Source: Sulfurovum sp. (lineage in GTDB: Bacteria; Campylobacterota; Campylobacteria; Campylobacterales; Sulfurovaceae). Taken from it: DNA of 64,000 nucleotides. Within the stretch, counting starts at the first letter, position 1, and each line of letters begins with the position of its first letter. Positions 7,110 to 38,823 of this stretch are shown one piece after another. A model generated the notes under the pieces. The model searched no databases, had not been told where the DNA came from, and saw only the letters and a list, made by a program, of their open reading frames with translations. Made by a program: the position numbers and the translations under genes. Location: positions 1 through 64,000 of the forward strand of contig JAJPEU010000004.1 in assembly GCA_021166685.1 (NCBI GenBank), read 5' to 3'.

Positions 7110-9745
7110 AGCGTCACTTGTTCCTCAACATTTTTGAATGTCTCAATCACATCGCCTGGTTTCATGTCATTGAAGTTTGCAAGCATGATACCGCATTCAT
7201 ATCCGCTTTTTACTTCTCTCGCATCCTCTGTAAAGCGTTTCAAGGAAGAGATGGTGCTTTCATGTATGACAACACCGTCGCGAATAAGTCTGGCTTTGCT
7301 TCCCCTGGTGATCACGCCTTCAGAAACTTTACACCCTGCAATCGTGCCAACTTTTGCCACCACAAATGTTTCACGTACATCTGCTTGTCCTGTCACCTCT
7401 TCTTTGATCACAGGACTCATCATGCCTCCAAGAAGTGCCCTGACATCATCAATCAAGTCATAGATAATAGAATAAGACTTGATTTCTACACCGAGCTCTT
7501 TGGCCTTTTTCTTCACTGCCCCTGTCGGACGTACGTTAAACCCTAGGACAACAGTATGTTCGCTTGCAGACGCCAGTGTTACGTCACTCTCTGTCACACC
7601 GCCTACACCCTCATGGATAATGTTAACCTTTACCTCTTCGTTTCTTAGTCTTTCTAAACTGCCTTTGATTGCTTCAAGCGAACCTTGAACATCCGCCTTG
7701 ATAATCACAGGCAACGCTTTAAGCTGTCCTTCTGCGATCAAAGAAGAGAGATCATCCAATGAAGCTTTCGTACTTTTAGAAAGAGTCTTTGCTCTGTCGT
7801 ATTCTGCTCGTTTTTCTGCAAGTTCACGCACCTCTTTATCCGTTTTCATCACAACAAGCGTGTCCCCGGCATCCGGCACATCATTGAGTCCCACAATTGC
7901 CGCTGGCGTACTCGGTCCAATCTCTTTTGCGTTAGAACCATCATCAAGTCTAATCGCTTTGATACGTCCGTATGTTTTGCCGGCAATCACATTGTCTCCC
8001 ACTCGCAGCGTACCATTTTTAATGATTACATTGGCAACCGGCCCAAATCCTTTTTCCAAGGAACTCTCCACTACCACTGCTTTTGCATCTCTTGTCGGAT
8101 CAGCTTTAAGCTCCATAAGTTCTGCTTGAAGCAGGATTGTTTCAAGCAATTCATCTATCCCCATGCCTGTATGGGCAGACACAGGAACAAATTCATGCTC
8201 TCCGCCCCAATCTACCGGCATAATCCCCAATTCAGATAGCTGAGATTTAACATTGTCTGGATTTGCACTCTCTTTGTCCATTTTATTGATTGCCACAATA
8301 ATAGGTACTCCGGCAGCTTTTGCATGCGCAACAGCCTCTTTAGTCTGAGGCATCACCCCATCATCGGCAGCAACAACAATAATAACAATATCTGTCGCTT
8401 GTGCTCCACGCGAACGCATCTCTGTAAAGGCTTCATGACCCGGAGTATCGACAAAAGTAATTTTTTTGCCATTTTTTTCAACCTGATAGGCACCCACATG
8501 CTGCGTTATTCCACCCGCTTCTTTGTCTGCAACTTTGGATGCTCGTATTTTGTCCAGCAATGATGTTTTACCATGATCAACGTGTCCCATAATGGTAATA
8601 ACCGGAGGTCTTTCTTTGAGATGCGCATCTTCAACCGCATCATAAGCTCCTGCATAATCTAATTCGTCAAGAGGGTTGACAGTCGTTACCTCCACGCCAA
8701 ATTCTTCAGAAAGAATCTCTATCTCGTCTTTTCCCAAAAAGTCATTTTTAGTTACCATCATACCCAATGCAAAAAGTACTTTTACCACTTCGCCGACACT
8801 CTTGTTAACCTTTTCGGCAAACTCGTAAACCCTTACGTTTTCAGGAATCTCAACAGAGGTTACCGCTTCCTTGCTTTCCTCTTTGATATACCTTTTGCGT
8901 TTTCCTCCGCGTCTGATGGAGCGGTTCTGCTGTCCTTGGAAAACATGTTTACCGCCTGCTCCTCCCTGTATTGCTTCTCTTTTTTTGACTTCTTCTTTGC
9001 GTTTTTGCTCTTGACGCATCATTTCTTCATAAATATTTTTATCAGAGAAATCTAAAAGCACCACTTCTTCTTCATCAAAGACACTGCTGATTTCGCCATC
9101 AAGGCTTGTATGACTGAAAATATCAAGCTTCTCTCCTCCGCTTCTTGCTTCGGCTACTTTTTTGGGTTTCTTTTTGGAAGCATAAGCCGTCTGCTCTTCC
9201 ATTGAAATTTTCGCAGCAGTTCTTACCGGTGCAGGTTTTGCTTTTTTTACAATTTTAATTCCGGTGCGAGAAAGTGTTTTTCTTTGAGGTTGCGCATCAG
9301 GAATTTTTTCAATTTCCTCAGCTGTATCTGATTCCTCTTTTTTGCTTACAACTGAAATCCCTTTGCGTTTTTTTGGCGCGCCGGATACAGAATGCAGCTT
9401 TTTTTCAACAGAAACCTCTACGGTTTCTGACTCTGCTTTTTGTTGTTGCGGTGCCGCTTCTTTGACCAAAATATCTTCCGATACTCTTTCTTCTGCCTTC
9501 TGCTCTTGGTCCGTTTTGAGAGCTGATTTTTTCACTACAGTCATTTTTGATTTGACTTTTGATTGTGCAAACTCTTTTGGCAATGTTCCGCTGATCGCGT
9601 AATCGACTAAAATGCCAGCATCTTCCATGCTGATGGTACTGTTGGCAGCTTTCACATCAAAGCCAAGCTCTTTGGCTTTTGCCAATAAATCTCCATTTGA
9701 CAATCCTGCTTCTGCTGCTATTTCTTGGATTTTAACTTTATCCAT
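7106..9745 (-). CDS. infB: Translation initiation factor IF-2
   Basis: IF-2 is the GTPase that delivers initiator tRNA to the 30S subunit. The 879-residue protein has an N-terminal IF2_N segment (1-50), a long lysine/glutamate-rich linker (about 60-300) and a second IF2_N-like module (about 300-350). The G domain has GHVDHGKT at 387-394, DTPGHE and NKMD. Domains II to IV follow, including a C-terminal tRNA-binding beta barrel. The linker is of normal low complexity for this factor. It overlaps ylxR by 8 bases upstream and rbfA by 4 bases downstream. Confidence 0.98.
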
Positions 9746-23093: not shown

Positions 23094-23936
23094 ATGAGAG
23101 AAAAAACTATCGGTATCGTCGGTCTTGGTTTGATGGGAGGTTCTTTGGGTCTTGCGCTTAAAAACATCTCACCTCACCTGAAGATTGTCGGATTTGATCA
23201 CAATGCTTCTCATGCGGCGCAAGCCATAGAGTTACATTTGGCCGATATTGTTGTAAACAGCATGGAAGAGGTCACTGCTTGCGATGTTATCTTTTTAACC
23301 ATTCCCGTAGATAGCATTATCGCCGTAGCGCAGCAGATGAAAAGTTTAGACGAAGCGTGTACCGTCATTGACCTAGGAAGTACGAAAGAGAAGATATCAC
23401 ACGCCATTCCTTCTCATTTGCGCAAAAATTTTGTAACAGCACACCCTATGACGGGGACTGAAAAATTTGGGCCAACTGCTGCAATAGAAGGCCTCTATGC
23501 TGATAAGGTGGTCGTCCTGTGCGATATGGAGATGAGTGGCGCCCACCAACAAGAAGTGGCCAAAAGACTCTTCAAACAAATAGGAATGAAGCTTGTTTTT
23601 ATGGGCTCCAAAGAGCATGACAGGCATGCGGCATTTATTTCTCATATGCCTCACGCACTAAGTTTTTCTTTGGCAAACAGCGTGATGCAGCAAGAGGACA
23701 GAAATAACATTATTGCTCTTGCAGGGGGAGGTTTTAGAGACATGAGCCGGATTGCCAAATCTTCTCCAACCATGTGGGAAGATATCTTCAGACAAAACAA
23801 AACCAATTTACTCCAAGCCATTGAAGCGTTTGAAACAGAGTTGGATAAATGCCGCACGATGGTCGAAAATGAAGAATGGGACACCCTCAACAGATGGATG
23901 CAAGAAGCCAACAGGCTTCACCATATTTTAAGCTGA
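23094..23936 (+). CDS. tyrA: Prephenate dehydrogenase TyrA
   Basis: TyrA oxidatively decarboxylates prephenate to 4-hydroxyphenylpyruvate for tyrosine. The 280-residue protein has an NAD-binding GxGxxGGS loop (IVGLGLMGGSLGLAL, 8-22), DLGSTKEKI, and the substrate segment VTAHPMTGTEKFGPTAA near 111-127. Another conserved part is SHMPHALSFSLA. It lacks fused chorismate mutase or ACT domains. A TATAAT box lies at 23063-23068, 25 bases before the start. It is convergent with batD, leaving only 23 bases between them. Confidence 0.94.
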   Translation: MREKTIGIVGLGLMGGSLGLALKNISPHLKIVGFDHNASHAAQAIELHLADIVVNSMEEVTACDVIFLTIPVDSIIAVAQQMKSLDEACTVIDLGSTKEKISHAIPSHLRKNFVTAHPMTGTEKFGPTAAIEGLYADKVVVLCDMEMSGAHQQEVAKRLFKQIGMKLVFMGSKEHDRHAAFISHMPHALSFSLANSVMQQEDRNNIIALAGGGFRDMSRIAKSSPTMWEDIFRQNKTNLLQAIEAFETELDKCRTMVENEEWDTLNRWMQEANRLHHILS

Positions 23937-31029: not shown

Positions 31030-32199
31030 TTATCGTTCATGCAATGCTTCAGAAAATGTTTTGATAATCGGCTTAGAAAGATAAGTTAAAACACTTCTGT
31101 TTCCCGTTATGATATCAACCTGTGCGGTCATCCCCGGTGTCAATTCGATTGCTCTGTCGTTCTTTGGTAAAAGTTCGGTTTGCTTCATTGCGATCAAAAC
31201 CCTAAAGTAGTATTTTTCATCCTTCTGGTTCTGTTCTACGAGGGCATCAGGACTGATGTATTTGACTGTTCCGTGGAAAATACCGTAAATACTATAATCA
31301 TACGCATCGAGTTTCACCGCTGCGGGCTGATCTCTTTTAACAAACGAAATATCCGAAGGGCTGATCTTCGCTTCTATGATCAGTTCATCACCCGACGGCA
31401 CAAGCTCCATAATAATATCTCCCGGACGGACTCTCGCGCCCTGCGTGGTAACAATAATATTTTTAACAACCGCATTCATTGGGGAAGAGATCGTTGTACG
31501 CTCCAGTGTGATTGTTCTATTTACAAGCTCTTGCTTTTTGGTTGAGAGCTCCTCTTCGGCTTTCGTCATCTCTGCTTGTGAATCTTGAAAATATTTATTT
31601 CTTGTATTTGAAATTTTACCTTTAAGATCTGCTATCTGCCGCTTCAGCCTGATAATCTCCGTAGCACCGATATCTCCGCTTTTGAGGAGAGGGAGATTCA
31701 GGCTCAGTTCCTCTTTTGCCAAAGCCAGCGATTCATTTAGTGCGGTGATATCATCGTTGAGTGCACGCTGACGTCTTTGGAATAGCGCTTTTTGGTTTTC
31801 TACAAATTCGGGATATTCTTTAAGTGAGTCATCAAAAACAAGCGGTTTTTCATAGACTTCTGCTTTCAATCTCTCCAAAGTCGCCTTGAGTGCTGCAACT
31901 TTTGCTTTGCTATCTTCGTATGCCGCTTGTGCCTGTGATTTTTCCAAAATAATCAAATGATCATCTTTTTTTACATGATCGCCTTCCCGTACAAATATCT
32001 TTTCAACAACTCCGTCTACCGCTGACTGGATCTCCTGTGTTTTGGCTGCGGCAATCACCTGCCCTCTGGCATGAGAAATCTGATCGATTCTGGCATACGA
32101 TGCCCAAATAAAAAATGGCACGATCACTATTCCCAAACTGCCGAAAATAATCCATAAAGGATTAATCTTTGTTTGATACGGATGTTTTGTCTGCTTCAT
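31030..32199 (-). CDS. HlyD-family membrane fusion protein of a type I secretion system
   Basis: The 389-residue periplasmic adaptor has an N-terminal transmembrane helix (about 12-30, PLWIIFGSLGIVIVPFFIWAS) and a biotinyl-lipoyl segment split around a long coiled-coil hairpin (about 65-230, ALKATLERLKAEVYEKP and AEEELSTKKQELVNR). A beta-barrel part follows, and the C-terminal motif GMTAQVDIITGNRSVLTYLSKPI is conserved in HlyD/LapC proteins. It links the ABC transporter with TolC. Its start overlaps the ABC gene by 4 bases. It is last in the adhesin secretion locus. Confidence 0.92.
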   Translation of the reverse strand: MKQTKHPYQTKINPLWIIFGSLGIVIVPFFIWASYARIDQISHARGQVIAAAKTQEIQSAVDGVVEKIFVREGDHVKKDDHLIILEKSQAQAAYEDSKAKVAALKATLERLKAEVYEKPLVFDDSLKEYPEFVENQKALFQRRQRALNDDITALNESLALAKEELSLNLPLLKSGDIGATEIIRLKRQIADLKGKISNTRNKYFQDSQAEMTKAEEELSTKKQELVNRTITLERTTISSPMNAVVKNIIVTTQGARVRPGDIIMELVPSGDELIIEAKISPSDISFVKRDQPAAVKLDAYDYSIYGIFHGTVKYISPDALVEQNQKDEKYYFRVLIAMKQTELLPKNDRAIELTPGMTAQVDIITGNRSVLTYLSKPIIKTFSEALHER

Positions 32200-34313
32200 T
32201 GCGCTCCTTGTTTTTTGGCCTGGACTGTCGGATTTAATTTAGCTAAAATCACTTCTTTTGGCCCATCCATCACAATCCCTTGAGGCGTTACCACTATTAC
32301 ACGGTTAACCAATCCAAGCAACGCCGGCTTATGTGTCACAACCACTAGCGTACTTTCAGGACTTAATTTTCGTTCTATCGCTTCGAGCATCTGTCGTTCC
32401 GTTCGTTCATCCATATTGGCAGTCGGTTCATCCAGAAGCCATGCTTTAGGTTTCATAAGAATCAAACGTGTTAATGCAATCATCTGTTTCTGACCCCCCG
32501 AGACGCTTTCGCCTCCTTCAGGGACGGGTGTATCAAGGCCTTGCGCCAAGACATTGATCAGATAGATCAGCCCCGTTTGCTTGGCAACTTCCAGTACCAT
32601 TTCATCATTAATCCCGGCAAGGCCGAGTAAAATGTTATCCCGAAGTGTTCCTGAGATCAATTTTATATTTTGCGGTAAATATCCGATCATTTCATTCAAA
32701 CGGTTTCGCGAAATATGTTGCATATCCATACCGCTGATAAACACTTTTCCCGGCTTCGGCTTATAAAGTCCGGCCAGCATTTTGAGCAGCGTAGATTTTC
32801 CTGAACCGATCATGCCCAAAATGGCTACACGCTCTCCGGGGGCAATGTTTAATTCTCCTATATTAACCGACGGCGCATTTTCCCCATAGCTAAACTGAGC
32901 ATTTTCAAGTCGAAAATGCGGTGCTATTACGGCAGGAGAAAGTGGACGCTCCACACCTTCATTATCACGCTCCAATGCATAAACCCTATCTAGATCCTCA
33001 ACCGCCATTTTGGTTTTTCCCCATTGAACAAGCAGATTTGGCAACATAGCAATAGGAGAAAGCACCCTGCCCGATAGGATTGTCGTCGCGATCAATCCCC
33101 CCATAGTCAAATTTTCCGTCGTACTCACCAAATATGCTCCCATCGCTACCAAAGAGATATAACTCAACTGCTGTAAAAACCCTGAAACATAGCTAGACAT
33201 TTCACTATAATGACGGATCTGTATATCATCGTGAATGGCATCTTCGCTCAATGCATTCCATCGGCTCAATAGTTTCCACCCGGCTCCGCTCGCCTTCACA
33301 TTTTCTGCATTTTCAACACTCTCAACAAGCAGTCCAAGCTTCTGATGCAATGACAAGGTTGAGGTTCTCGAAAGCTCCTCTACCTTCTTTCGAAAAATCA
33401 TACCGACAAAAATAGCGATGATTAAAAATCCTAGAACAATCGCCCCTATCATCCATCCTGCAAGCATGATAATGACCCCTAAAAAAATCATCGAGAAAGG
33501 AAAATCAATAAACACATACAACGCAACTGTGGAGATAAAAGCCCGTACTGTTGCATAGCTTTGCAATTGTCCGGAAAGTGTTCCGATACTTCTTGGCAGC
33601 GCATCCAGACGTATTTTTAAAAAACGATCAAAAATATGGTGCGAATAGGCGATATCCATACTCACAGCAGCCCGATCAAGGATATGCGAACGGGAAAGTT
33701 TGAGGATCATCTCCAAAAAAATAGCAATAAATACCCCCACGCTCAAAGCCGCAAGAGTTGATAGCCCCTGCGTTGGAATCACCCGATCATAAACCTGCAT
33801 ACTGAAAAATGATGTCGCCAACGCTAGAATATTGATGCTCAATGATGCGATTGCTGCATACCAAATGATCGGTTTTTGTTCTAATGCAATAGTTTTAAAC
33901 ATCTCTTTGGCAGACAATTTGTCAATGCTTTTACGTTCAGACTTGATTGAGGTAAACCATGTGCCTTTAGGAAAGGCCCCGCAACTTCTCAGCCCGTCTC
34001 TTCCTTCGCTTTTCCAGCTTCCCTCAGCTTCTTTTTCTATAACGATACGTATCCCTTCATCCGGAATCAATGCCAAAACAGGAAGATGGGCATGTGAGAT
34101 ACTTTTGCTCCATTGTGTATTTTTCAGCCCAAGATTCTCAAACAGGTGATCATAAAAAGAAAGGATACTCTTCTCTTCAATATCCACCAGTGTTTGCTCT
34201 AGTATCTCACGCTCATAAGAAGTCAGCCTCAAAACAGAAAACGGCGGAAGTGCGCATGCTTGTGTAAGCCACGCTATATCATGCCTTGCGCTTTCAATAT
34301 CTTGATAGAACAT
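32196..34313 (-). CDS. Type I secretion ABC transporter (LapB/LssB-like)
   Basis: The 705-residue inner-membrane exporter has three parts. The N-terminal domain (about 1-135) resembles a peptidase C39-like domain without the catalytic Cys/His set, as in RTX exporters. Six transmembrane helices follow (about 155-440). The ATPase domain has Walker A GMIGSGKST, signature VSGGQKQ, Walker B AWLLDEPTAN and H-loop VTHK. It powers export of the adhesin encoded upstream. It abuts tolC (1-base overlap) and overlaps the hlyD-like gene by 4 bases. Confidence 0.94.
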   Translation of the reverse strand: MFYQDIESARHDIAWLTQACALPPFSVLRLTSYEREILEQTLVDIEEKSILSFYDHLFENLGLKNTQWSKSISHAHLPVLALIPDEGIRIVIEKEAEGSWKSEGRDGLRSCGAFPKGTWFTSIKSERKSIDKLSAKEMFKTIALEQKPIIWYAAIASLSINILALATSFFSMQVYDRVIPTQGLSTLAALSVGVFIAIFLEMILKLSRSHILDRAAVSMDIAYSHHIFDRFLKIRLDALPRSIGTLSGQLQSYATVRAFISTVALYVFIDFPFSMIFLGVIIMLAGWMIGAIVLGFLIIAIFVGMIFRKKVEELSRTSTLSLHQKLGLLVESVENAENVKASGAGWKLLSRWNALSEDAIHDDIQIRHYSEMSSYVSGFLQQLSYISLVAMGAYLVSTTENLTMGGLIATTILSGRVLSPIAMLPNLLVQWGKTKMAVEDLDRVYALERDNEGVERPLSPAVIAPHFRLENAQFSYGENAPSVNIGELNIAPGERVAILGMIGSGKSTLLKMLAGLYKPKPGKVFISGMDMQHISRNRLNEMIGYLPQNIKLISGTLRDNILLGLAGINDEMVLEVAKQTGLIYLINVLAQGLDTPVPEGGESVSGGQKQMIALTRLILMKPKAWLLDEPTANMDERTERQMLEAIERKLSPESTLVVVTHKPALLGLVNRVIVVTPQGIVMDGPKEVILAKLNPTVQAKKQGAQ

Positions 34314-35584
34314 TATTTTCCTTCATTTTCAAACTCGATTTTTCCTGTTTGCAGTGCCAGTTTGTATGCGGATGTGACCCATACCGCTTTAAGTGTTGCC
34401 AAAGCGATTTTATTTTGTGTTACCTCTCGTGAGGTATTGACAAGATCGAGCCACTGGCGTTTTCCCGCAATAAAAAGACGTGTATATGATTCGAGAACTC
34501 TTTGGGATGCTTCGATTGTTTGGTGTATACTCTCTGCCCGGGCTGCGGCCGCGATAAAATCCGCATAGTCCACGACTAAACTCTCTTTAAGTTCCTGCTC
34601 TTTGACCTTAAGCTCATCTTGTGCCTGAAGCACCTTATATTTGGCACTTTCTATATTGGACATCGCCGAGAGTCCGGCGCCCGGGCTAAACGAAACAGCA
34701 ACATACATCGCCGTATCATCTTGTACCTCAGTATCGTAGATCGTTCCTCTTTGATGTTCTGCCCGCAATGATATATTTGGCATTATGACCGCATCTGCGC
34801 CTTTTTTTTCAGCATTTGCCATTGCGATTTTTGCTGTCAGTTTTTTAAGTACGGGATGTGTCTGCAAAAGTTCTTCCTCCATTTTTTCAAGAGACATTTT
34901 GCATCTCACGATATGGTCTTTTGTAAAACTGATGGCGCATGGCTCGGAGTTGCCGGTAAGCAGCTCAAGCTGAGAAAGCGCCATCTCATATTTCGACTGC
35001 GCCAACATCAGATCCGCATCGATCTGTGCGATACGTGCACGAAGAAGCTCTCGGTCTGATTCAGAAGAAACGCCCGCTTTGATACGCCTTTCGAGCATCT
35101 GGGCCAAATTTTCAAGCTGCTGTTTACCTTCGCTAAAACCTTTAATCTCACCGTCTGCTTGAATATAGTATTGTAAAACACTCAAAACCTTTTGGGCCAA
35201 TGCATAACTGGTCTCACCCAACGTATGTTCCGCCTCATCTTCACGCGCCGATGCCAGGTCACTGATCGCGTCAAGCTTTCCTCCTGTCCACAAAGGCTGG
35301 TCAAGCCGCAAAGTTGTCTCTCGTCGCCCCGACCTTTGCGAAATATCCACAGACGGCGTCGGAAAGTAATTCCATTTCGCGCTCTGCATCTGTGCATCGG
35401 CATCCAGGATCATCTTTTTTGAAACTTCTATGCTTGGATAATGTCCATAAGCTTCCTGAAGCAAAGAAGAAACCTGCTTAACACATGAACGCTCTTCTCC
35501 GACCGGACTATCGATGGTGATAAACTCAGCCTTTGCATGCACAATACACAAAGCACAAATGATCCATAAACGCTGATACCTCAA
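34313..35584 (-). CDS. TolC-family outer membrane channel of the type I system
   Basis: The 423-residue protein has a signal peptide (about 1-19, LWIICALCIVHAKA) and two long helical repeats typical of outer membrane efflux proteins. Markers are LRLDQPLWTGGKLDA near 93-107, and VAVSFSPGAGLSAMSNIESAKYKVLQA and AGKRQWLDLVNTSREV in the second half. The AGKRQWLDL segment is frequent in AggA/LapE channels dedicated to adhesin export. It is the first of the three transporter genes and lies 277 bases after the adhesin. Confidence 0.92.
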   Translation of the reverse strand: MRYQRLWIICALCIVHAKAEFITIDSPVGEERSCVKQVSSLLQEAYGHYPSIEVSKKMILDADAQMQSAKWNYFPTPSVDISQRSGRRETTLRLDQPLWTGGKLDAISDLASAREDEAEHTLGETSYALAQKVLSVLQYYIQADGEIKGFSEGKQQLENLAQMLERRIKAGVSSESDRELLRARIAQIDADLMLAQSKYEMALSQLELLTGNSEPCAISFTKDHIVRCKMSLEKMEEELLQTHPVLKKLTAKIAMANAEKKGADAVIMPNISLRAEHQRGTIYDTEVQDDTAMYVAVSFSPGAGLSAMSNIESAKYKVLQAQDELKVKEQELKESLVVDYADFIAAAARAESIHQTIEASQRVLESYTRLFIAGKRQWLDLVNTSREVTQNKIALATLKAVWVTSAYKLALQTGKIEFENEGK

Positions 35585-35655
35585 ACTTCCGCCTTTGTAA
35601 ACTATTTTAAAGAGCTGAATTCAACTCGCTATTGCAATACACCCAATCTAAATCC

Positions 35656-35760
35656 TTAAATTCTATCACAAAATACTTCGACAGGCGCTTTATATCCAAG
35701 CGTCTTCATTTGTGCTTTAACTATAATTATTTGCCATATGTTACTATCCGTTTTAGTGTG
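35656..35760 (-). pseudogene. Relic of an IS transposase C-terminus
   Basis: On the minus strand a frame ends QMKTLGYKAPVEVFCDRI then stops at 35656. The LGYK-x-P-x-EVF tail is typical of the last residues of IS30/IS481-type transposases. Upstream the frame (NGFIHTKTDSNIWQIIIVK) is degenerate and no catalytic region remains. The relic fills most of the gap between the adhesin and tolC and suggests a past insertion and decay inside the locus. Confidence 0.5.
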
Positions 35761-35779
35761 GATAAAACCATTCGATTTT

Positions 35780-35816
35780 GAAAAATAAAAACAACCCTTA
35801 CAGTCACAGGATAAGG
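35780..35816 (-). terminator. Possible terminator after the adhesin gene
   Basis: On the minus strand CCTTA (35816-35812) and TAAGG (35800-35796) form a short stem around an 11-base loop, followed by a T-rich tail (GTTGTTTTTATTTTTC, to 35780). It lies about 45 bases after the adhesin stop. A second stem (TGGCC...GGCCA) precedes it. Termination here could lower transporter expression relative to adhesin. Confidence 0.35.
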
Positions 35817-35861
35817 ACTGGCCAGACATCAAAAAGCATCCGGCCACATCCAAAAAGATCT

Positions 35862-38063
35862 TTACAGCACCCGAATATCCTGTTGTATCCAAATGTCAGC
35901 ACCAGCTGTTCCGCCCATATCATAGGTATTATAGATAACTCCGTCAACAGTGGCCGATCCTGTAAATGTTTCAGCAGAAAGCGTCACTGTGTCGCCTCCG
36001 TTCCCTGTAATATAAAGCGTATCACTGGTATCACTCAACGCAAGAAGATCGGTGTAATTTATCGCTAACGCGTTATCGCCATCTCCAGTAATATCAATTT
36101 TTTCAATCCCAACTATCTGAGTACCGGCAACACCTGAAAGATCAAGGGTAATATTGCTGCCTTGAATTAAAAGCGTGTCAATGCCTGTTCCTCCATCAAT
36201 AATGGAATCCATAGCGTCAAAAACAAGTATATCATTTCCCGCATCCCCATGCAGTACATCAATACCATCTCCTCCAATGAGGATATCATTTCCATCCCCT
36301 CCGTTTAGCAGATCATTGCCATCGCCGCCGCGAAGCAGATCATTCCCCTCTGCGCCCGATAATGTATCACCGCCTGCAAAACCATAGAGGCGATCGCTGC
36401 TTGCCGTACCGTTTAGACCGTCATTTCCTGAAGTACCTTCTTGAATACCAGAATCATCACTTTGAGTGTGAAGCAATCCGACATTGAGTAAATCGCTGCT
36501 GCTGTCCGTGCTCGATAACCCGTTCATATCGGTTGCGGTAATGCTCAATGTATCCAACACGCCCACGTCAAGCACGGTATTTTCGAAATGTATTGTTGTC
36601 AACAACTCATTCAGTTTCATATTATCAATAGGACCGCCATCGGTGGCCGTGATCGTAATCGTCGATGAAGCAGCCAACAATCCCAATATTCCAGGATTAT
36701 TCACAACCGATACAGTCAATCCCAATTCTGCCGCTAACACACTTGAAGCAGTGAGCTGATACGTAGACAGATTTACTAAACTCGTATATTTAACAGTAAC
36801 TGTTTTAATATTGCTGTTGGCATCCATCGCAAATACTGCCTGATTCGAAATATCCAGCAAACCTAATGCCTCCGCACCGACAAGCCCCAACAATGTAGAG
36901 TTATTGGCATTCACGATGGGTGCTTGGTTGACAATTGCGCTGTCACTGGAGCTCGGCCCGACATTTCCTGAGGCATCTCGGATAGCCGAGGTAACCGTTA
37001 GAACCTGAACACCTGTTGGAAGCGCAACACCGGATATTGTCTGAGTGGAACCGGCAGTCATTGTCGTACCGTCCACAATATAAGTAGCAATTACCGATCC
37101 GGTCAGATTATTCGTAACTGTGATAACATCGCCTATCTGCGCATCTGCCGGAATGCCTACTGCAACATCCGTCGTAGCGGCCCCTCCTTTTTCTGCTCCA
37201 TCGATGCTGCCGTCATTGTTTGTGTCTAGTACGATCTCGATGGATGCAGCCGTTGGGGGCGGCGTAGTGTCTGCACCAACGGTCGTGCCGCCGTTATTGC
37301 CTACATCGAGTGCATCAGTAACGGTGTGGCTTCCGAACGGATCGCTATAGGTAACCGATACGCTGACCGGTTTTCCTTCATGATCAGCCGTCAGGGTAAA
37401 GGTGCTTTGATCGGCATTCGGATTTGCTACTGCTGCTCCGTCCACAGACCATGTGTACACAGGCGTGCCTGTGATGCCGTCGGGATCGACAAGATCTGTC
37501 GTCAGGGTTTGTCCGACAACCGCTGATCCTTCGATCGTTACACTTCCCGCATCGTCTACGCCGCCAACGGTCGTGCCGTCTTCACCTCCGCCCCCGCCTC
37601 CGCCACCGGCGGCGGCAGCTATACCAATCAATGCGCCTGCTCCTGCGAGATATGCCCATATCGGCATATCATCTTTTTCACCCGGAACTCCAAGCATAGA
37701 GAGATCCTCTTGCCCTGAAGCTATTTGATTTAAGCTCACTATGTTACCGTCAGATTGAGCAACATACGAATAATATGTACCCGTTTCATCTATACCAATC
37801 ATATCGGTATTCGAGATATCAAAAAAGTTTTCTAAAATAAGATCAGGGGCACCATTATGGTCTCCATCTAGATTGACTTCTAGATTTTTACCAACTTTTT
37901 TGACCATTACTTTTATGGGTGCTGTGTTTGTAGTCATATCTTTTAGCTCATACTTAACACCTTTTTGTGCTTGTATCACTATTGGATTTGAAACAGAAGA
38001 GGAAACAGTCTGCTGCCCTATAACCTTAGCGCCAAGATGTTCTATAATTTTAATTTGTGCCAT
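35862..38063 (-). CDS. RTX/BapA-type secreted adhesin
   Basis: The 733-residue protein has no Sec signal. Residues 1-130 resemble the BapA prefix domain ([35 protein letters not shown]). A hydrophobic segment plus a polyglycine hinge (about 133-160, [18 protein letters not shown] then eight glycines) follows, as in cell-retained adhesins. Two to three Ig/Big-like beta domains lie at about 165-520. RTX calcium repeats of GGDGNDxLxG type run from about 555 to 620, and the last ~100 residues should hold the type I secretion signal. It is far smaller than LapA or BapA. It overlaps the OmpA-like gene by 14 bases. Confidence 0.88.
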
Positions 38064-38580
38064 AGCGGAATCCCCTTATTTTATTTTGTTTACCTTGAAG
38101 TATTATCTCAACTCTTCTGTCTGGAGCTAGGCATGCTATAAGAGCTGACCGTTTCATTTTATCACTGCAGCCTCTAGCTACCGGCTTTGCTTCTCCTCTG
38201 CCTCGAACTTTAAAGATACTTTGAACACCTTGTGACTTAAGGTAGGCAGCTACTGAATCCGCTCTTCTTTGAGAAAGATTTAAATTTTTGTTATAGCTTC
38301 CGATTCTATCGGTATACCCGGTGATATCAAAAGAGGCTACATTCAGTTTATTCGCTTTGATATTAGATATAAATTGATTTAAACATCGTTTGCCCTCCCC
38401 TTTCAGCTCTGCTTCATTGAATTCAAAGAGCGCATCCGTATTTAAGGTAATAGTAGTATTGAGCATTATTTTTTGTACTCTTGGGATAAAATATCCTGTT
38501 TTATCGGCCACACTGGTTGTGGAAATTATTGCTAACACTACAAAAAATCCTAAAATTTGTTGTATCCATGTAAGCTTCAT
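38050..38580 (-). CDS. OmpA-like C-terminal domain protein of the adhesin locus
   Basis: The 176-residue protein has a signal peptide (about 1-26, [21 protein letters not shown]) and an OmpA-like peptidoglycan-binding domain. The markers are [49 protein letters not shown] split over about 84-114, and [11 protein letters not shown], with DRRVEI near the end. No beta-barrel is present. OmpA-type genes accompany type I secreted adhesins elsewhere (for example the Shewanella BpfA locus, from memory), where they may support the channel or the adhesin. AAAGGAT precedes the ATG. It is the first gene behind the riboswitch-like leader. Confidence 0.9.
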
Positions 38581-38600
38581 TCGTCATCCTTTAAGTTTTT

Positions 38601-38623
38601 TATTGCTGAAATAATCAACAATA
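38601..38623 (-). promoter_or_regulatory. Leader hairpin between riboswitch and ribosome binding site
   Basis: On the transcript UAUUGUUGA (38623-38615) pairs with UCAGCAAUA (38609-38601), nine base pairs with one G-U and a five-base loop. It is followed by six A residues, not U, so it is not a classical terminator. It sits between the aptamer-like element and the AAAGGAU site and could be part of a translational expression platform. Confidence 0.4.
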
Positions 38624-38634
38624 CAATCGACAAT

Positions 38635-38698
38635 GCAACTCGGCAATCTAGCTGGAGACCCGTAGTTTTCCGTCCTACTCTCGCGGGTAGTTTGGCTT
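38635..38698 (-). promoter_or_regulatory. Cyclic-di-GMP-I (GEMM-I) riboswitch-like element
   Basis: On the minus strand the leader reads AAGCCAAAC, then hairpin CUACCC-GCGA-GAGUAG (38690-38675) with a GNRA tetraloop and one C-A mismatch. Next come GGACGGAAAACUACGGGUCU and a second short stem CGG/CCG, closing with GAUUGCCGAGUUGC. Order, tetraloop, the GGACG-A-rich-CUACGGGUCU core and the GAU-GCCG-GUUGC end match my memory of the GEMM-I consensus (GGCAAAC ... GGACGCAAAGCUACGGGUCU ... GCCGGGUUGCC). Deviations are AGCC for GGC, GGAAAAC for GCAAAGC and a short second arm without an obvious tetraloop receptor. It lies 55 bases before an operon for a biofilm-type adhesin, the expected target class. 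Confidence 0.68.
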
Positions 38699-38823
38699 TA
38701 ACGCGTGTTTGATTCGAATTTCTCCACTCTCTCCCAGATAAGGAAAAATTATGAACTATTACAGTGTAATGTTGCTTAAAATGCATTAATATAATATTGA
38801 GGCCTCTGAATAATGATCGTTTA

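Follow-up and report, generated by a model that had tools for sequence, protein, structure and literature searches.

A predicted c-di-GMP-I (GEMM-I) riboswitch ahead of ompA, RTX and type I secretion genes in Sulfurovum sp.

The leader of an OmpA-family gene in Sulfurovum sp. (assembly GCA_021166685.1, contig JAJPEU010000004.1, positions 1 to 64,000, a stretch of 64,000 nucleotides hereafter called the window) contains an RNA that resembles GEMM-I aptamers, which raises the question of what this RNA is, which genes it would control and in which direction. A sequence-only reading had proposed a candidate GEMM-I riboswitch of a type I secreted adhesin operon, possibly a new subclass or a decayed copy. 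The reading favoured here, with a probability of roughly 0.85, is that this RNA is a functional c-di-GMP-I riboswitch which controls the genes that follow it.

Identity of the leader RNA

The covariance-model check proposed for this locus came out in favour of the known class: with cmscan, RF01051 (c-di-GMP-I, GEMM-I) matched positions 38631-38706 of the minus strand at 53.7 bits (E 1.1e-7; gathering score 35 bits) and over the full model (positions 1-87 of 87), being the sole Rfam family above threshold in the window besides one tRNA. The interval originally proposed, 38635-38698, is nearly equal to the ligand core from G20 to C92, at 38635-38696 (-). The GNRA-capped hairpin reported earlier corresponds to P2 at 38675-38690 (-), which according to the Rfam alignment and the pair counts in 98 relatives has a GCGA tetraloop and one C-A mismatch in its stem, while the P3 arm at 38637-38667 (-), built from a 5′ strand at 38657-38667 and a 3′ strand at 38637-38648, has standard pairs at all ten consensus positions. 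A loose core pattern recovered the aptamer and one further site in the window, at 23672-23704 (+), where no Rfam family scored above threshold; in 60 dinucleotide-shuffled versions of the window it did not occur at all. The draft genome itself (1.80 Mb, 21 contigs, 94% complete) holds two RF01051 copies over the cut-off and two weak ones (16.3 and 13 bits); the second good copy, C17:40860-40934, scores 61.1 bits and lies 190 nt upstream of a 294-aa ORF with a lipoprotein-like start.

In regard to the binding pocket, Rfam positions 11-50 were converted to Vc2 numbering by adding 9, a mapping of our own under which all 13 residues that the available text of PMC3764141 names in this half fall on the expected base. 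That text gives 17 conserved GEMM-I positions; all but G90 could be mapped, and the 16 mappable ones are all conserved in the window (G20, C22, A23, A25, G32, A35, G42, C44, G45, A47, A48, A49, C59, G79, G83 and C92). Among them are the ligand-contact residues G20, A47 and C92, the interhelical residues C44 and G83, and the C59-G79 receptor pair on P3, present as C-G here and in 94 of the 98 relatives.

These relatives come from a sample of 397 Campylobacterota genomes, in which 43 genomes had a GEMM-I match at E <= 0.001 (42 over the cut-off), amounting to 107 matches, 105 of them over the cut-off. The 107 matches reduce to 103 distinct sequences, of which 98 are in register under a filter that requires G at position 20; five were dropped for shifted spacing, including those of G200 and G186, which keep the usual G-C form at 21-46. 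Pairing in P2 and P3 is retained in 88 to 98 of the 98 copies, with covariation of the pairs, and pair 22-45 appears as CG in 82, UA in 14 and UG in two. Together with the Rfam score and the conserved contact residues, this covariation upholds the GEMM-I assignment, and the RNA at 38631-38706 is, by its sequence, a standard c-di-GMP-I aptamer and a further member of the known class.

The features that had been taken as departures from the consensus, or as decay, fit this picture. AGCC in place of GGC goes with GACGG in place of GACGC, making pair 21-46 a C-G, and GGAAAAC likewise reflects a compensated pair. The same C-G pair is found in 96 of the 98 in-register Campylobacterota copies, and when the swapped form was sought by its exact pattern, at least 115 stretches matched, many of them in Delta- and Gammaproteobacteria (21 of the 80 stretches listed have Campylobacterota names, counted by eye). 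Because the swap is a compensated pair that is common in Campylobacterota and beyond, the variant is not a new subclass, and the swapped 21-46 pair was rejected as the mark of one. A short second arm is also common in the phylum, where many matches span 75-80 nt. At the base of the structure, P1 is weak in the window, with G14 opposite A93 and at most two pairs in the registers tried; A93, incompatible with the pair usually found at the apex of P1, occurs in 30 of the 98 in-register copies. The G14-C93 apex, absent here, is not treated as class-defining, because the Rfam model leaves P1 unpaired and the available text of PMC3764141 describes the conservation of the G14-C93-A95 triple as no more than moderate.

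Downstream genes and their conservation

Five genes follow the aptamer on the minus strand. The first encodes an OmpA-family protein of 176 aa (38050-38580; PF00691, E 5.6e-18) and overlaps by 14 nt the gene for a 733-aa RTX protein (35862-38063; PF00353, E 1.8e-15), a candidate adhesin-like substrate of type I secretion. These are followed by genes for a TolC-like outer membrane protein (34313-35584; PF02321, with TIGR01844 below its cut-off), a type I secretion ABC transporter (32196-34313; PF00005, PF00664), whose nearest NCBIfam model is LssB (TIGR03375; 607.7 bits, short of the 693.1 required), and an HlyD-family periplasmic adaptor (31030-32199; PF13437, and TIGR01843 at 300.3 bits over a cut-off of 208.65). 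The proposed type I secretion context is thus borne out by Pfam and NCBIfam matches and by a gene order that is kept in the sister genome described below. Since a gap of 277 nt (35585-35861) parts rtx from tolC, we only infer co-transcription of the exporter genes, and control by the riboswitch would have to reach past this gap into tolC, the ABC transporter gene and hlyD. The gap has a similar length in the sister genome, and a terminator or another promoter might lie within it.

The adhesin label held in part. A homologue search with the RTX protein (7994 candidates scored) returned 44 proteins, among whose names are Ig-like proteins for Sulfurimonas and Sulfurovaceae members and, for other bacteria, targets of type I secretion. 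Four homologues scanned with Pfam carried RTX repeats in all four cases, Ig-like domains in three and BapA_N in two, which favours the label, whereas the window protein itself shows RTX repeats only in Pfam; judged by its relatives, it is probably adhesin-like.

An OmpA match at E <= 1e-10 was found in 29 of 175 family genomes, the window's own genome counted. Of the others, only that in the sister genome G447 is close, being 91% identical over residues 1-166, and the next one is at 42%. G447 keeps the riboswitch (RF01051, 53.4 bits) and all five genes in the same order at 86-96% protein identity, so that the comparison of leaders suggested for relatives found both the RNA and its genes retained. 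Within this one genome pair, 1 of 62 sites differs in the aptamer core. Differences are more numerous in the upstream intergenic part (36 of 150), in the part running from CATTTTAAG up to the aptamer (6 of 87), in the 3′ spacer (6 of 54) and at the start of ompA (11 of 131). A DNA search with the leader over 78 genus genomes recovered the whole leader in G447 only, all other matches being parts of the aptamer. In two genomes of another genus of the family, G003 and G238, a GEMM-I match lies upstream of OEP, OmpA and a large open frame (no shorter than 1220 and 1265 aa; its Ig-type matches all stay below the cut-off), and this by its sequence looks to be a rearranged but similar gene set. When the window's five proteins were sought downstream of the other 106 matches (E <= 1e-6), the ABC transporter was found in three genomes and OmpA in one; with so few homologues there, the exact riboswitch-operon arrangement is rare.

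From aptamer to gene expression

The ATG of ompA, at 38578-38580 (-), lies 50 nt past the end of the aptamer match. The leader also holds a Shine-Dalgarno-like AAAGGA at 38587-38592 (-) and, between it and the aptamer, an AU-rich hairpin at 38601-38623 (-), with nine pairs (one of them G-U) in the folds and seven in G447 by alignment. Upstream, CATAAT at 38748-38753 (-) is a candidate -10 box that is identical in the aligned G447 sequence and was not called by the promoter scan; judging by the sequence, transcription may start near 38738-38742 (-). No terminator-like site was found on the minus strand between 38480 and 39000. Over the phylum matches, a simple script placed such sites in 8 leaders out of the 105 for which an ORF was called, ORF starts having been chosen crudely and two of the 107 matches having given no ORF.

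Forcing the aptamer to form in the folded leader costs 5.9-7.8 kcal/mol in a model that ignores the ligand and tertiary contacts. In the window, this raises the openness of the start codon from 0.13-0.14 to 0.45-0.48 for three leader lengths, the shortest leader going from 0.28 to 0.50, while that of the Shine-Dalgarno sequence drops slightly (0.75-0.79 without forcing, 0.69-0.73 with it). Forcing does not free the start codon of G447, whose openness moves from 0.43-0.57 to 0.26-0.55, and the Shine-Dalgarno sequence there opens slightly. An alternative helix in the window pairs the 3′ end of the aptamer (GAGUUGCAUUGUC) with the start region; the duplex reaches -9.9 kcal/mol, with 4% of shuffles as good, and in G447 -6.0 kcal/mol, with 9% or 28% as good depending on the type of shuffle. 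An opposing helix, between AUUCGAAUC and GAUGACGAAU, has about equal support.

The same calculation was extended to 82 of the 107 leaders, namely the untruncated ones with an ORF at a start distance of 20-160 nt. With the aptamer forced, the Shine-Dalgarno sequence opened in 9 and closed in 10 leaders, and the start codon in 11 and 15, respectively, with no difference from shuffled spacers; neither sign prevails, and general occlusion of the ribosome site was rejected. In 74 leaders, pairing between Shine-Dalgarno sequence and aptamer, between spacer and Shine-Dalgarno sequence, and three upstream pairings did not exceed cross-leader controls. Spacer-aptamer pairing exceeded all 2000 permutations, but long spacers dominate this result. 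Runs of at least seven bases complementary to the 3′ arm of the aptamer occur in 13 of 82 leaders, whereas 20 shuffles gave a mean of 7.55 and never more than 11. Spacer pairing with this arm may thus be employed by some relatives; in the window the run is five bases only.

According to the reading we prefer, the riboswitch occupies the 5′ leader of the ompA-rtx pair, ahead of tolC, the ABC transporter gene and hlyD, and would regulate at least the first genes in cis. At high c-di-GMP, the aptamer is predicted to bind its ligand through G20 and C92, with A47 between the bases of the ligand. The closed aptamer would then alter the leader, most likely raising translation, and the adhesin-like protein would be supplied at times that call for attachment. 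We consider translation a somewhat likelier level of control than termination, and for the direction we lean slightly towards an ON switch; ON at translation is preferred because no terminator was found, the start codon is close to the aptamer, the cargo is probably adhesin-like and Vc1 of Vibrio cholerae offers an analogy. Against this reading weigh the weak P1, given that a P1 mutant of Vc1 has lowered expression (PMC4744006), the energetic cost of forcing the aptamer, the slightly less open Shine-Dalgarno sequence in the window and the start codon that is not freed in G447.

It is conceivable, albeit doubtful, that the same aptamer acts as an OFF switch, in which closure joins the ends of the leader and stabilises the AUUCGAAUC/GAUGACGAAU helix, hiding the ribosome site and the start codon. 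This helix is part of the window's minimum-energy fold and stays there with the aptamer forced for three of four leader lengths. Its duplex energy is equal in G447, and about 3% of shuffles reach it in each genome, a weak figure given that the helix is one of two candidates picked by inspection. OFF switches are known among GEMM-I riboswitches, Cd1 being one according to the available text of PMC9262584, and the slight closing of the Shine-Dalgarno sequence in the window would agree with them. On the ensemble, however, the start codon of the window becomes less hidden, not more, when the aptamer is forced. Moreover, c-di-GMP normally promotes adhesins, which also speaks against an OFF switch.

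Two further explanations concern the aptamer itself. It could be a cGAMP-sensing or promiscuous GEMM-Ib variant, since Geobacter GEMM riboswitches prefer cGAMP (PMC8683041, available text), but the position described in the accessible part of PMC9262584 as deciding selectivity, G20, is G here and in all 107 Campylobacterota matches, taken before the register filter; c-di-GMP rather than cGAMP is therefore the predicted ligand, and such a variant is highly improbable. Alternatively, the RNA could be a relic that has decayed and no longer switches but keeps an aptamer-like score, which would account for the weak P1, for the C-A mismatch in P2, which is uncommon (CA in 4 of 98 relatives), and for a score below that of the genome's other copy. 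Against decay, however, no other part of the leader changes as slowly between the two sister species, and every mapped pocket residue is retained; a relic is improbable as well. A working c-di-GMP-I riboswitch, predicted to bind c-di-GMP, stays the preferred explanation.

GEMM-I in the genus and phylum, and known systems

GEMM-I matches over the cut-off are present in 72 of the 78 genus genomes, with a total of at least 531 matches at E <= 0.001 and a median of at least five per genome, counts that may be low as candidates were limited. At least 20 genomes have ten or more matches, and the maximum, reached in two genomes, is at least 21, in genomes of about 2 Mb; some of these aptamers precede surface or secreted proteins. 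PilZ (PF07238) exceeded its cut-off in none of the 78 genomes, one of which has two sub-cut-off matches; the search was positive in 5 of 14 control genomes, distant PilZ forms could escape it and some genomes are incomplete. In the window's own genome, profile searches gave no PilZ and no MshEN match, and five GGDEF and four EAL matches over the cut-off; the GGDEF motif is intact in one domain and degenerate in one. Tentatively, and with low confidence, c-di-GMP output in the genus could run mainly through RNA, with PilZ missing and adhesin operons switched in cis on the mRNA, not by LapD/LapG-type proteolysis. This would be a genus where RNA receptors may replace PilZ proteins as main c-di-GMP effectors, and the locus offers a concrete predicted c-di-GMP target, tied to probable surface attachment, in a little-studied bacterial group.

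Across the phylum, 97 first downstream ORFs were scanned, with long ones trimmed to 700 aa and distances above 350 nt excluded. Among the 25 of 71 families listed, surface and sensory domains recur and no single family is dominant (DUF11 in 8, PilJ in 6, PAS_9 in 5, SdrD_B, Big_9, CarboxypepD_reg and CAP in 4 each, DUF4382 in 3). GEMM-I lies 178-190 nt ahead of similar ORFs of 293-294 aa in three genomes including the window's own (L034, L066 and L075), and these ORFs are probably the three DUF4382 matches. PF00216 was found in two of the 97 ORFs, a HU-type DNA-binding protein being an unexpected target; at L102 847-1122 and L118 6573-6845, in two genomes with similar spacers, GEMM-I lies 155 nt ahead of a HU-type-like ORF. 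A tandem pair of GEMM-I matches 12 nt apart was observed at L090 (G225:C1:356375-356473 and 356486-356583), further close pairs occur in the genus (e.g., G445:C2:9006-9083 and 9143-9220), and runs of the core pattern, four at L174 7200-7502 and three at L171 5827-6264 on Desulfosudis and Desulfobulbaceae contigs, are possible multi-tandem GEMM-I arrays.

A literature search outside most subscription journals found no report on GEMM-I in Sulfurovum, Sulfurimonas, Campylobacterota or Epsilonproteobacteria. TPP is the only riboswitch reported for Campylobacter jejuni leaders in the available text of PMC3847290, and that of PMC7580541 describes expanded GGDEF/EAL families in Sulfurovum symbionts and mentions no riboswitch. 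The Rfam member list may already hold copies from the Campylobacterota group.

Compared with RF01051, the window aptamer shares the full-length match, the P2 GNRA loop, P3 and residues G20, A47, C92, C44 and G83, and it differs in pair 21-46, C-G against the G-C of the Rfam consensus, and in A at position 93. The cGAMP riboswitches of Geobacter, known as GEMM-Ib, have the overall class and fold of GEMM-I and carry A at position 20. The window aptamer shares this class and fold (PMC8683041, in the text available) but has G at the selectivity position, and the accessible part of work on G20A and cGAMP supports the A in GEMM-Ib (PMC6274999). In the LapA/LapD/LapG system, an RTX adhesin exported by type I secretion is under c-di-GMP control (PMC6890996, available text), and such control of a type I secreted RTX protein is also predicted in the window; here, however, it would act at the mRNA, and the window's own genome has no match to LapG (PF06035) in a search positive in 1 of 14 controls, nor to the N-domain profile of LapD, which matched none of the controls either, so that a LapD may well have escaped it. 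A parallel in mode of action may be Vc1 of V. cholerae, where, as far as the available text of PMC4744006 describes it, c-di-GMP raises gbpA expression, a P1 mutant has lowered expression and neither a terminator nor an anti-Shine-Dalgarno sequence is apparent. At both loci the leader that contains GEMM-I belongs to a secreted attachment protein, a candidate adhesin in our case, and shows no recognised terminator or anti-Shine-Dalgarno sequence, while the window differs from Vc1, as described there, in its OmpA/RTX/type I secretion gene set and in the shorter distance from the aptamer to the start codon.
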